Below are positions 27,964 to 48,789 of a stretch of DNA of 64,000 nt, one piece after another. Location: positions 29,293,501-29,357,500 of the forward strand of contig NC_092580.1 of assembly GCF_037975245.1 (NCBI RefSeq). Reading direction: 5' to 3'. This DNA is from Apostichopus japonicus (lineage: Eukaryota; Echinodermata; Holothuroidea; Aspidochirotida; Stichopodidae). Under the pieces are notes generated by a model. The model worked only from the letters and a program-made list of their open reading frames with translations, was not told where the DNA came from and searched no databases. The position numbers and the translations under genes are program-made. Positions within the stretch are counted from its first letter, which is position 1. Every line of letters begins with the position of its first letter.

Positions 27964-30900
27964 CTAATATATATTTAAAACAACTATTGTAACTGCTACT
28001 ACAGTATTAAATATGCAAAAATTAAATTTTGAATTTCCTTCGTTAGCGATTGATCTCAAAGTATAAGCATCTTCTAACTGTGAGCCATCTAAAAGTGCCA
28101 CAGAACCGTTACCTGTGAAGTCAATAAAAAAGATGAGATTAGTTCATTCGGCCCAATAGTTATTAATTAAAAGTTCGACTATTTTCGAAGAAAAATTACA
28201 AGGAAATATTTCTCTCTGAAATATTTTCCCTCTTGAAGTATGGATATGTTTTTGTTAGTGTCTTTAAATAAATTAGCACGGACTATTATTGCTTGCAACA
28301 ATTATGAATTTATGGTCAATAATTAAGGTTTAGTTACATACACTGTTCCGCCAAATACAAACGGAAGAGTCCTTGTCTTCTTATTCATTATCTCTAGCAG
28401 AAACGGCCAATATTCTCTGATCGATCACGGCAAATTTCGCCAGTAAAGGGTTCTTTTTCTACAATTAATGCCGATTTTTTCAAAGATTTGAGTATTTTGA
28501 GCAAAATATTAAAATATGTAAGCAATACTGATCATCTTACTTTTATCTGAACGTTTCTAAGAGACGGGAGTTACGGGGAAAGCGAAACCCGTGCGTGACT
28601 TCTCGCAACTTTTGAATTTTTTTCAGGAAAATCGGTCACAAAATCACGTAATATTTGTCCATTCACATCAGAGGATGCTGAGAATAATTTCCATATTCAG
28701 TCAAACTGCTTACCCATCTCCCTACACTTTTAAAAATAAACTGGATTAATTTTCATGTGAATTATAATTTACCTATTTATTTATTTTTTATAATTGTGTT
28801 TTATGCTGATTTTATAATTATGATCGATATTGAATTTTACTGGTACGATCCTATTAGCTATTATCAGAAGTTTTAATGGTATTTTTAATACATTCTGCAA
28901 TTAACTCTTTCAAATTCATTCTAAGGATTATATGGCATAGTAGGAAAATCAACACCACTTTATACACAGCACCGACGAGAGGGGGTTGGGGTCAGGTAGC
29001 TACGGGTCCTGGCTTAATTACTGTGGGGGGGGGCGGTGAAATATGGCCCAAAGACATTTTTCTCATTTAATGATATACTTAAGGAAAAATGAAGAGTACC
29101 CCCGGTGACATCATTTTCCCGGGGTCTGACCTGTGTCTAGTTACATCTATGGATATTCAGTGTCTTAATTTTAATTATATTTAAACATAGGCGGTAAGAT
29201 CAATATCTCAGTTAATATCATAATTCAATCAGTAATCGTACCAAATTTTATAATTAAAGACAGTTGCGAAGCGTTGCTGAAGAAATTGTTCGCATCACAC
29301 GTGACCGATGCCATTGCAAATGTCCCCGGTAGGTCCCCTATTGTAATGGTTGACGTCACGGAGATTGGTGAATGTGTCTGCGTTGTCACGGAAATGTCCC
29401 TTCCCCAGTAACCATCACCACCGAGTGTAAAGTTTTTGGACATCCAAGCCACTTCTGGAACAGGGAATCCGTATGCGGTACATGCAATTTGGATTGGCTG
29501 AAATAGAGGGCTCCCTAACTTGATATATTCTTTCACGGTAACTTCAACAGCGACTGAAATAAAAACGAGAGGATATTGAAGCCACGTGATAAAGGATCTC
29601 GAATGACGTCATGCAGAGACGTTAACTCGGTCACATGTCAAATGTCCAAACGGTGGTTAATAAATCATCGTTAAGCGAATTCAAATATGTCTTCTTTTTT
29701 TCGAAAATAGAAATAAAAGAAACTTATGTCAATCATGCGGATGTGGAAACCCTAATTCTATAATTCTTATATGATAGCAAAATAATCGGATTTTTTTTTT
29801 GTCGAAATTCATCAGCAAACATGTATTGAGACTTTAAAGTTCCGTTTTATGCGATTAACACAACTGCGGGTACACCCCCCCCCCCCCCCCATGGCCACAC
29901 GCACAACTCATCCTTGCTCACTCCGTCTCCAAAATATCCCACATACACACACACACACACTCACTAGCATCCCAAAGATACAGACAGATTTATTTACCAT
30001 TGACATTAATATTTCTCAAGATGGTTTCAGATCGCCGGTTGACTACATATCTTAACAAGCAAGTGTAGATCCCTGCGTCATTTTTATCGGCCTCATATAT
30101 AACTAATGATCCATTGGTTAGTATTTCTCCATCGGGGCTCCTGTCACCGTCGATATCATGTAGACCCGTTGTGCCAATCAAAATCCCGTTCTTGTTCCAG
30201 TACATATTGCCCGATGGGATCGGAGGGACCACTAAACAGGTCAACACAAACCCCTCACCGTCAGTGAGGATAAAATCTGCCATCGGCTCAAGATTTGGTT
30301 CTGCAGTGAAGAATGTTTCGTAATGTATATGTTAAAAGACGCCTCAGTCAACGGAAAGAAACTAAAGAAATGTTGATGTTAATGCTATTGATTTAAAGAA
30401 GTTCCCCACGCCCATGCCTAACCCACCCACCCCACCCCAATGCACCCCTCCTCCGTTCAAAATATGTTAGAAAGTCAAGTAATTGTTACTCCGTCTCAAC
30501 ATTCAATAATCAGTTTACAGCCACTGTTAAAACATTATTTTTATTTTTTTTCTGAGACACTTTGTTATCGAATCAATATGCTTCCACAATGTCTGAGGAG
30601 CGAACAGTAACCGCAGTACCGTCTGTAAAATAACCAGATTTGTAAATGTAATTGATGGGTGTTTCAAATTGAAGTAATTTTAAAATTTATTAGTTTATAT
30701 AGCTGAGATATCATTTTAACTTAAACATTCAATATACCTGCGTGTATAGTGACGTGAACAGAATCCATGCCTGGCATATCGTAAGAAGCGCACGTAAATA
30801 ACCCGGCATCAATTTCTCTTGCGTTGTAAATTATGAGCGCATTCGTCGTCACTGTGTCAGCCAAATTGACACTTTCGATGACTTCATACCTTGGTCTGAC

Positions 30901-44702: not shown

Positions 44703-47700
44703 ATGAAGCTTTTCCAGACATTGTCCCAGCTCGTAGTCCTATCTGGTCTGGTTTCCTCTTTGACTCAAACCGACATGGACACATTTGGATCGAAAACGTT
44801 CACCGAAGCTAACACTGGTCTACAGGTATGTAACGCGAAAAGGGAAAACTTATTTTGTTGTCTAAACTAAGTTTGTTGCTGTGTAAACTAAAGTTGTTGT
44901 TGCTGTTTTACCACGTTGTTACTCAAACTCACGTTGATGTATTCCGTTGTCTAAACATACGTCGTTGTCTAAACTTACGTTGTTGCCATCGGCGCTGTTC
45001 AAAATTGCGTAATGTTAACCAGAATGCAAAATGCATTGAGGTTTCGATGACTTCAGTGCACTAGATTTCTGCTTGTTAGTATAAGCAGAACTAGCTGTTA
45101 CAATAGAAATGGCCCAACCACCATTTTGAAACAATAACACTATGGCATGATAAACACAGGCCAGTCTACTGTACGTGGCTACACACACCTCCACCAAAAC
45201 GATAGAGGTCTTGGAGGTCCAAGTCCATTTGGGGTCACTAGAGGTCAAATTGTGAAAACCTTGTAAACGCGATAACTCAAAAGGGAAGGTTGGACGAATC
45301 CCATATTTAGTATGTAGTTTTGATACTTTCAGTAAATGATTTTATTGAGGTCAAAGGTCATTTGGAGTCAATAGACGCCAAATTGTGGAAACTTTGTTTT
45401 ATAAGCTACCGTACCTCCCCGTCCGCCGCCAACCTATCAGATAACATGTGCGTTACGCCTCAAACGAATAGGAGGCTGCACGGTAAACAACTTTTAAAAT
45501 GTTGTGGGCTTTGCATTTACGCTGCGAATGTCGGAACTCAAGCAAAACGAGTGTCTATAGACAAAGTACCAGCATAAAAATACTGCACTTTTAACCTGAT
45601 TTCATTGAACCCTTCAACAATGTGTAGAGATATACGCTGTGAATGTCGGAAATCATGTTAAACGAGTGTCTAGACAAAATGTCAGCATATAAAAACTGCA
45701 CTTAAAACTTATTTATTTGAACCATTAAATGATATCTGGATATGTTGTGAATGTCGGCAATCAAGTAAGTGACAGTAATATTCCTAGAGACCAATAGTTT
45801 TCGTCCCGATCGAACACCAATTGCGTTTATTCCTATACTTTTACTAAGATGCGATCGTATCACTGCCTGTACTTTGTGAATGCTCTACACAATAAATATG
45901 GCAGATGCCATCCAGTGCCCTAGCCTTTTTTACAGGGGTGGCCGCCTGACCTTCATTTCGCCTGCCCTGCCACTCTTTCCTCCTCGCCAACTCCGTATAG
46001 CCTATATAGTACATCCATGCTTTGACCTTGCAGCGATTTCACCAGCAACTCCAACTCTTCAAATATCCCCGTACATGCAGTGTGCATATCACGCAATTGT
46101 ATTAGGCCTGTTCGAACTTCGGAGTTTCAACTGCACACGTGCAAATCCTGAAAATTTGTGAAGAAAAGATCATATCACCGTACCTACAACACATAGCCCT
46201 ATAGTCAAAACTCGAGTATATCTTGGATGATTCGTTTCTTGTATAACATGTTAGCGGTCTTTTTGGTCTAAAAATTCGTAACAATGCTGAGCGAGGTTTG
46301 TGTAGGCTTTATTCCATTTACTGCACAATCCCTTTCGCAAATTAAAACTCCTAACTGGATTGGTGTTACGAATGAACTTGCAATTGCTTGGCTGGTTTAG
46401 TTAACTAGTTCAGTGAGTGTATTGCCTACGTACTTTGTGCCCTTAGTGTTGCTCACGAAGCGCAGACTATATCCAACCATAGAGCAACTGATCCAACATT
46501 TACCCTGGATTCTTCGCAGTATTTGGAAACAACCAGCTCCACGAAAATTATGGTATTTAAATAACATTTTTACGCAATGTCGATTAAGAATCTCAAACTT
46601 CAATGACTGCTTTTGACGGTTTATGAATGCAGTAGTTTATACACACGAATGTTGCACCAGAATCATTTACGCAAGTTTGCAACGAAGAAATTACTGTGGT
46701 ATGAATGCACATTTTACATTATCAACTCTCAATAGGGAGAGACACAAACATACTGTGAGATGAAAAGTCCTTTTCAGTATCAGAGATGTTGTGGTATAGC
46801 CTCCCGCAAAATTCATAGATTGTCTCAACTCATAACTTTCTGTGATAAAACAATTATTCAAATATTACGTGAACAATATCGTTAAACAACGTCCTCGGAG
46901 TTGTAGCAACTATCATGTAAATATCGTCAACAACATGATTTTGTTCGACAAATAATGTTTTTAATGATATTAACATGGCTGTTGCTACAAATCAGGACGT
47001 TAACGAATTTGTTCCCCTTTCGCGTTACATATATAGTTAAACCATCATAATTTGCGTTCATTGAGCACTGAAGATGCAAGCATGCAGTTTTCAGACAATG
47101 GGTAAGGGACTATAAGCCAAACAAATCGCGGGAAATTTGAGAAAATATCATTGGCTGTATTAAGCATGAAAATCTCTGTAATAGAAATGGTGTTAGCTCT
47201 GCACAGAAGCAACTTGCGGTTGATTGTTATAATTTTTTGAAAAGAAAGAATGATGTCCGTTCACAATGTGTTACAACAACGGAACTTTAGATAGCAACGA
47301 AAGTGTAGATATCAAGGTGAGTTTAGACATCAACGTGAGTTTAGACATTAACCGTAAGTTTAGAAATCAACGTGAGTTTAGACATTAACGAGAGTTTAAA
47401 CATCAACCGTAAGTTTAGAAATCAACGTGAATTTATACATTAACCCGCGTTAGTCATTAACGTGACTTTAGACATCAACGAAAGTTTAGACATCAACAAA
47501 CAACAGCAATATGGTAAAATAGCAGCAACAACTTAGTTTAGACAGCAACAAACTTAGGCCTATAGTTTAGACAACAACATAATGTTGCCCTTTTCGCGTT
47601 CAATAGGTAGCAGCCTACGAATAATGCATTTTCCTGCGCTGGTGATGTTTGTTGAATTTCGTACGAAACGCCTATTTGTAACATTATGTGGTTGAGCAAT

Positions 47701-48789
47701 TGTTGAACAGCGTGGATGGTTACGACGTAAGTTTAGACAACGGAAGTTTAGACATAAACGTGAGTTTGAGCAACAGCATGGTAAAACAGCAACAACAACT
47801 TTAGTTTAGACAAAAACAAACTTAATTTAGACAACGTCATAAGTTTTTCCTTTTCGCGTTCCATATTCCATATACAGGGCTATGTGTCTGTTACCGATGA
47901 TGGTCAAGGAAACTGGGTCATCTCCGGTAACGGCATCCCAGACCACGAAACTGGAACTTTCCCGAGCAACCGAAGCCCAAACGAAATCTTAGAGTCAGAA
48001 TATACGTATACTGTACCGCAAGAACCAACCGTAGCGGATTCACCTACCTGCTTACCACCCGGCCCTATTGGCGTAGCTACAAATGGTGTAGTCTTCTTTA
48101 ATCCGTGGACTTCAAAGGGGAAGAACGCAATAGAACAGGAGACCTTTGACCTCTGCGATGGACATCCGAACGGGAAAGGTGTCTACCATTACCACAAGAT
48201 GCCATCAAGCTGTTTATTTACTGTGAGTTTTGTATTCGGCTATCTTTTCCTTTCTTAATTTTCTATTTTTGCTTTCTTTCTTGTTTTCCACATATTTCCT
48301 TCGTGGGTCATTTTGTATTCCATTTAATAACACAGTTCTCTAAGTAAATTGGCTCTTTTTTATGTTAATGAACATTGTTTGCTTGTTTCGACCGTGGATG
48401 CCCACCTAGTAGGCCTATTCTAATATCATACTCTGTATTTATATTCACAGTGTTTGCTTGTTTGTTAATTTGTTGTTGTTAATGTTGTTTTGTTGCCTCA
48501 ACAGGTCGAGGATGGTGTTCCATCTCCTCTGATAGGCATTGCATTCGACGGGTTTGGTATCTACGGACCAATCGACGAAAATGGAAACACGCTGACGTCA
48601 TCGGATCTGGACGCTTGTCACGGTCGTTTCAATTCCGACGGTGTTTACCAGTACCACGCCACCACTAACTTTCCATACATACTCGGTTGCTTTACGGGCA
48701 AGCCGTTCAATATTCGCAATGCACTGCTCAATGGCGATAAATGTTACTTTGCAAGCGATGCTGATTCTGAGACTGGTGACGTAGAGTAA
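44703..48789 (+). CDS. YHYH-domain secreted protein, three exons
   Basis: Exons 44703-44825, 47878-48222 and 48505-48789 are all phase 0 with GT-AG borders and give 250 residues. Residues 1-20 are a signal peptide (LFQTLSQLVVLSGLVSSL). An in-frame ATG exists at 44544, but starting there would bury the signal peptide, so I prefer 44703. The YHYH family signature GVYHYHKMPSSC is at about 142-153, followed by IGIAFDGFGIYGP, DLDACHGRF and a second histidine motif GVYQYH (about 202-207). YHYH proteins occur in bacteria and marine eukaryotes and have no settled function; the paired histidines and cysteines suggest metal binding (inference). An AATAAA at 48957 closes the gene. Intron 1 is almost entirely one inverted-repeat element (separate entry). 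Confidence 0.9.
45536..45775. repeat. About 106-bp tandem repeat, 2-3 degenerate copies
   Basis: GAATGTCGG followed by an ACGAGTGTCTA..GACAAA segment and a run ending in ACTGCACTT recurs at 45536, 45641 and (first part only) 45749. It lies inside the intron element of the YHYH gene. Confidence 0.6.
47281..47510. repeat. Array of about 18-bp units GTTTAGACATCAACGTGA
   Basis: Degenerate tandem units built on GTTTAGACATYAACG-, about a dozen copies with alternating CGTGA and CCGTAA ends. Related words in the opposite orientation (TTGTCTAAAC) occupy the left end of the same element, so the array is part of its subterminal structure. Confidence 0.7.

Follow-up and report, generated by a model that had tools for sequence, protein, structure and literature searches.

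We found that intron 1 of a YHYH-domain gene in the sea cucumber Apostichopus japonicus very probably originated from a DNA transposon that landed at ACAG within a coding exon. The gene lies in a 64,000-nucleotide stretch of contig NC_092580.1 (assembly GCF_037975245.1, positions 29,293,501 to 29,357,500 of the forward strand), here called the window. An original prediction, made from the letters of this stretch, had described the intron as looking like an introner, that is, a transposon-like element that itself serves as the intron.

Borders of the element and of intron 1

At the donor junction, exon 1 closes with ..CTACAG at 44825 and GTATGTAACGCGAAAAGG opens the intron at 44826, while at the acceptor junction TACAG occupies 47873-47877 and exon 2 starts at 47878, leaving the codons on either side intact. 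The left border of the transposon copy in the window reads ..TCTACAG/GTATGTAACGCG, and its right border reads CGCG-TTCCATA-TTCCATA-T/ACAG/GGC, in which TTCCATA stands twice in exact tandem and the final base is T instead of C, a terminal change that copy L048 has as well. We infer that the element reaches 47873 and adjoins ACAG, its right end having been hidden by the TTCCATA duplication, and that the target-site duplication (TSD) is the 4-bp ACAG, with T as the element's last base. Given the TTCCATA duplication, the TSD flanks the element, whose borders fall on the splice sites, and taking out the element plus one ACAG leaves an open phase-0 frame of 156 amino acids to the end of exon 2.

These borders agree with the core of the original prediction: element and intron coincide (base for base once one ACAG is added to the element, again given the TTCCATA duplication), the flanking codons are intact in phase 0, and the element appears to supply the 5' splice site and the target duplication the 3' splice site. 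In addition, two paralogues lack the intron. The predicted terminal inverted repeats (TIRs) of about 190 bp do run from the donor (intron positions 2-183 pair with 3040-2871, 81% over 183 columns, with a gap-free core of 114 nt that is 89% complementary), but the right end meets ACAG rather than stopping 17 bases short of the acceptor. The proposed 5-bp TACAG duplication had to be given up, since 4 bp are duplicated at nine distinct perfect sites of the family and the T belongs to the element end.

In the order of events that we propose, a non-autonomous inverted-repeat transposon would have inserted into the coding exon at ACAG. The sequence shows its outer end, with the GT of GTATG, adjoining exon 1 and a second ACAG directly before the next codon, so that, if the 7-bp duplication is accepted, element and one ACAG make up the intron and coding sequence runs unbroken across the empty site. 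The spliceosome would take GTATGT of the element as donor, read the inverted end as its pyrimidine tract and cut at the duplicated ACAG, by which the gene would have survived the insertion.

The right side of the window copy is more complex. In the family the right end usually corresponds to about 47606, a point within the intron; besides the window copy, 13 of the 29 top matches listed end at the corresponding query positions (2785-2787), and none of the 29 extends past them. At its terminus the outer 267 bp resembles copy L024 (87.9% over 190 columns), and because it ends in what seems to be an inverted left-type TIR, the window copy would be composite. Its inner usual end and outer inverted left-type end might perhaps have come together through nested copies and a deletion between like-oriented TIRs, events that could precede or follow formation of the intron. 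The left end and the inner right end were also considered as an insertion pair, which was ruled out by the flank there, GTAG. Within the element, positions 46871-47014 hold a self-complementary stretch followed by a TIR-like CGCGTTACATA (to 47032), and this pseudo-end recurs in several other copies; the structure may be an insertion nested long ago or a hairpin internal to the element.

Paralogues and integrity of the gene

Three YHYH genes were detected in the genome (6 of 6 candidates scored in the family search and 7 of 7 in the protein search). The two paralogues of the window gene, both on C5, are homologous genes without the intron: their junction reads NTGIV/GYV, unbroken and without a gap, compared with NTGLQ/GYV in the window gene. 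The donor of intron 2 lies at the same place and phase in all three genes, and intron 2 appears to be an old intron. At fourfold-degenerate sites the window gene differs from the paralogues at 23 of 36 and 25 of 33 positions, NG86 synonymous divergence is not computable, and the split is saturated at synonymous sites. The element is much closer to its relatives. An internal segment of 678 bp departs from the majority sequence of 12 older-wave copies at 26 of 663 bases (~4%) and from that of the 35 distinct sequences taken together at 43 of 650, and the element's branch in the tree has a length of 0.036, although its exact placement is weakly supported (0.77). With the gene split saturated and the element only ~4% from its relatives, the intron would have been gained, and sequence divergence makes it most unlikely that intron 1 is as old as the gene split.

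An old intron might nevertheless have occupied this position already, with the transposon inserting later beside its donor. Transposons are common in large introns, and the usual family right end lies inside this one with some sequence after it. However, once the TTCCATA duplication is accepted both outer ends adjoin exon or TSD and no other intron sequence is left; in addition, both paralogues lack an intron there and the element is very young compared with their split from the window gene. We consider a pre-existing intron very unlikely.

If instead the insertion had broken the gene, exon 1 would be unjoined and a pseudogene or a downstream start would be the outcome, and the unspliced frame does run into a stop 15 codons past exon 1. 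We regard this as very improbable, given the intact donor and acceptor and a coding sequence (CDS) of 753 nt with no stop or frameshift, whereas the 678-bp element segment differs from the older-wave majority by 26 substitutions and 6 indels (4 of them not multiples of 3). Neutral change would be expected to leave about one stop (the nonsense share is 85/2250 single changes) and about four frameshifts in a CDS of this length, so its intact state suggests splicing; because the divergence gives an upper-bound age, this is support rather than proof.

Further features bear on splicing of a transposon-derived intron 1. The window copy has the donor GTATGT, compared with GTATGG in the family, and among the matches listed the window is the only place with zero mismatches to GTATGTAACGCGAAAAGG. 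The acceptor is preceded by a stretch free of AG from -36 to -2. With a short artificial linker in place of the 3-kb intron context, the arms are computed to fold into a very stable hairpin (-143.4 kcal/mol, z -23). The CDS consists of three exons (753 nt including the stop) in a single open frame, with exon borders set from splice consensus and the paralogues, and its start resembles a signal peptide by eye. The protein matches Pfam YHYH (PF14240, E 4.4e-25), and it has no relatives of solved structure at E 0.001.

Several points weigh against an origin of intron 1 by transposon insertion. The 4-bp match depends on the TTCCATA duplication, without which the right flank would be TCCA, and since AG is expected at both places from splicing, only AC is independent evidence. 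The composite right side makes the exact inserted unit uncertain. Among the family end pairings described below, seven apparent outer pairs (L006, L019, L034, L035, L049, L056 and L066) lack a perfect 4-bp match, two of them (L019 and L035) having flanks that agree at 3 of 4 bases. In one paralogue the match to exon 3 (C5:3255076-3255357) contains two stops, one of them in an intronic stretch before the exon, and this paralogue may be damaged. Lastly, the 12 older-wave copies were picked from the tree by eye, and divergence from a majority can only set a maximum age for the insertion.

Table 1. Positions in the window of the YHYH gene and of the transposon copy that coincides with its first intron
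Feature	Position	Strand	Remarks
Exon 1, YHYH gene	44703..44825	+	Starts ATG, ends ..NTGLQ; gap-free junction alignment to both paralogues
Intron 1, YHYH gene	44826..47877	+	Equals element plus one ACAG
Exon 2, YHYH gene	47878..48222	+	GYVSVTDDGQG..SSCLFT; first part of YHYH domain
Intron 2, YHYH gene	48223..48504	+	Donor place and phase common to both paralogues
Exon 3 with stop codon, YHYH gene	48505..48789	+	
TSD copy 1, ACAG	44822-44825	+	Last four bases of exon 1
DNA-transposon copy	44826..47873		Starts GTATGTAACGCG (family GTATGGAACGCG), ends CGCG-TTCCATA-TTCCATA-T
Left TIR	44826..45008	+	Opens with GTATGT, the 5' splice site
Inner (usual family) right end	47563..47606	-	Followed by GTAG, no match to ACAG
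Outer right segment, 267 bp	47607..47873	-	Past usual right end; 47679-47865 resembles inverted left-type TIR and bears pyrimidine-rich tract ahead of acceptor
7-bp tandem duplication TTCCATA-TTCCATA	47859..47872	+	Right terminus
TSD copy 2, ACAG, the 3' splice site	47874..47877	+	

The transposon family and other copies

A genome search for the element ends and TIR, proposed as a check on the original prediction, was run and uncovered a repeat family. The 18-mer at the intron start occurs, with at most two mismatches, at 636+631 places in the 671.6-Mb genome, compared with 14+10 for the pattern read backwards, and its frequency is therefore not due to chance. In a BLAST comparison of the element with the genome, in which 3834 candidates came up and the best 40 received a score, the matches of at least 1 kb among those listed are 80-87% identical. 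Related copies start with GTATGGAACGCG and finish with CGCGTTCCATAC, their outer termini being GTATGG...CCATAC.

We paired ends with at most three mismatches that lie 100-6000 bp apart, dropping pairings with repeated flanks, and 40 pairings are listed. The flanks match at 4 bp in 16 of the 40, one of which (L014) is an internal pseudo-end; the other 15, all outer pairings, represent nine distinct sites (TTTG, TTCA, ATGT, CTTT, TCAT twice, GAAA, CCCA and CACA), with seven of the 15 falling on a single TTCA/TGAA site. The remaining 24 include pairings with the conserved internal pseudo-end, the three of the window copy, one unclear pair in L041 and the seven apparent outer pairs noted above. 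TIRs (81% here) and a TSD of constant length (4 bp at nine sites) are thus both found, as in cut-and-paste transposons. No transposase could be recognised by eye, either among the five longest open reading frames (ORFs) of at least 110 amino acids in each of 15 loci or among ORFs of at least 70 amino acids in L089, a 3.77-kb inverted-repeat locus, and these loci yielded no autonomous partner. One ORF in L041 has a hAT dimerisation match, to which no link with the element was made. Judged from its sequence, the element appears to be a non-autonomous inverted-repeat DNA transposon.

Other arrangements of these ends were seen along the way. Seven copies (L013, L014, L015, L018, L026, L027 and L039) have the same flanks, forming one TTCA/TGAA site, which places the transposon within a larger, itself multiplied repeat. 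In about 1.1 Mb of G000:C9:34613176-35690117, eight related ends have the same small set of flanks (CTGT or CTCT), which looks like local amplification. A different short element, which continues AACGCGAAAAGGACCACAA, is found in L006 (589 bp), L021 (752 bp), L064, L076, L080 and L081; because it has the terminal bases of the window family, one transposase may move several families. In L089 (G000:C13:15433500-15437450), the repeat reaches outward past GTATGG, and one ORF shows, by eye, a C2H2-like motif and an acidic tail. Elsewhere in the window, an open frame at 29228-29608 on the minus strand resembles an immunoglobulin-type domain exon by eye only.

That the family is a genuine introner, producing introns across the genome, would be compatible with the origin proposed for intron 1. 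Both ends read GTATGG outward, so insertion at NNAG in either orientation would serve, giving GT and AG. The counts argue otherwise: AG directly before an end, our proxy for gene enrichment, is not enriched, occurring at 8 of 557 intact-core ends compared with 10 for the reversed-dinucleotide control GA. Since both fall below the 35 expected if dinucleotides were equal, the target site itself seems biased. The seven other AG ends lack a convincing coding flank, their longest open donor-side stretches being 11, 11, 25, 27, 38, 75 and 104 amino acids, the last of low complexity. For L022, an AG end with both ends in hand, the empty site is open for 77 amino acids without further support. We read 19 of the 20 ends in one flank set, L072 having only 2 bases of flank, as well as L005, L006, L022, L030 and L031, and none has a coding-like flank. 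A Pfam scan of six flank ORFs gave no match for L066, L067, L069, L073 and L077, while L063 scored 12.8 bits, below the cut-off of 26. Among 18 CTNN-type ends listed, the flank was fetched or read for 8, and among 18 acceptor-type places listed, only the one on C5 was matched to a left end. The copy at C5:23897812-23898486 has GCAG at both ends and lies in non-coding-looking DNA; CAG-type ends are also listed at C6:18495317 and C18:18382686. Among the intact-core ends whose flanks were read, no intron beyond intron 1 was found to coincide with a copy. A family with many introns is thus supported neither by the AG counts nor by the flanks, and we think a genome-wide introner family quite unlikely; intron 1 looks like a single event rather than the product of a mass intron producer.

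It is conceivable, though on balance rather unlikely, that the GTATGGAACGCG..CGCGTTCCATAC transposon group is a latent introner in sea cucumbers, with other introns perhaps traceable to its older, diverged copies. If so, any exonic NNAG insertion, in either orientation, would bring a ready donor, pyrimidine tract and acceptor.

Comparison with known systems

We take the element to belong to the non-autonomous DNA transposons with long TIRs and subterminal repeats, of the miniature inverted-repeat transposable element (MITE) or foldback type, with no superfamily identified. It resembles these in its inverted repeats, its 4-bp TSD, its hundreds of ends and the lack of a noticed transposase-like ORF in the copies read, and it differs from them in that one copy appears to serve as an intron. 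The source family, target duplication, empty-site paralogues and intact frame are all visible at one locus, and because they can be seen together the birth of one intron becomes testable.

No introner reports for sea cucumbers or echinoderms were found in the literature searched, and the words echinoderm, Holothuria and sea urchin are absent from the main text of Gozashti et al. 2022 (PMC9860276), the species tables of which are in its supplements. In that report, the introners of Chrysochromulina sp. (Fig. 2C) have a 4-bp duplication, a 5' splice site within the element and a co-opted 3' splice site, all as in the sea cucumber intron; they form a family, described there without TIR evidence, whereas here we find long TIRs, a length of ~3 kb and one intron. 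The introners of Symbiodinium microadriaticum (Fig. 2B) are alike in combining a 4-bp TSD with TIRs. Median lengths of introner families in the same report are 30-654 nt, compared with ~3,050 bp for the sea cucumber element. On this analysis the mechanism would be introner-like, closest to the 4-bp families of PMC9860276 and especially to that of Fig. 2C. This case also suggests that an ordinary transposon can occasionally make an intron without being a specialised introner.
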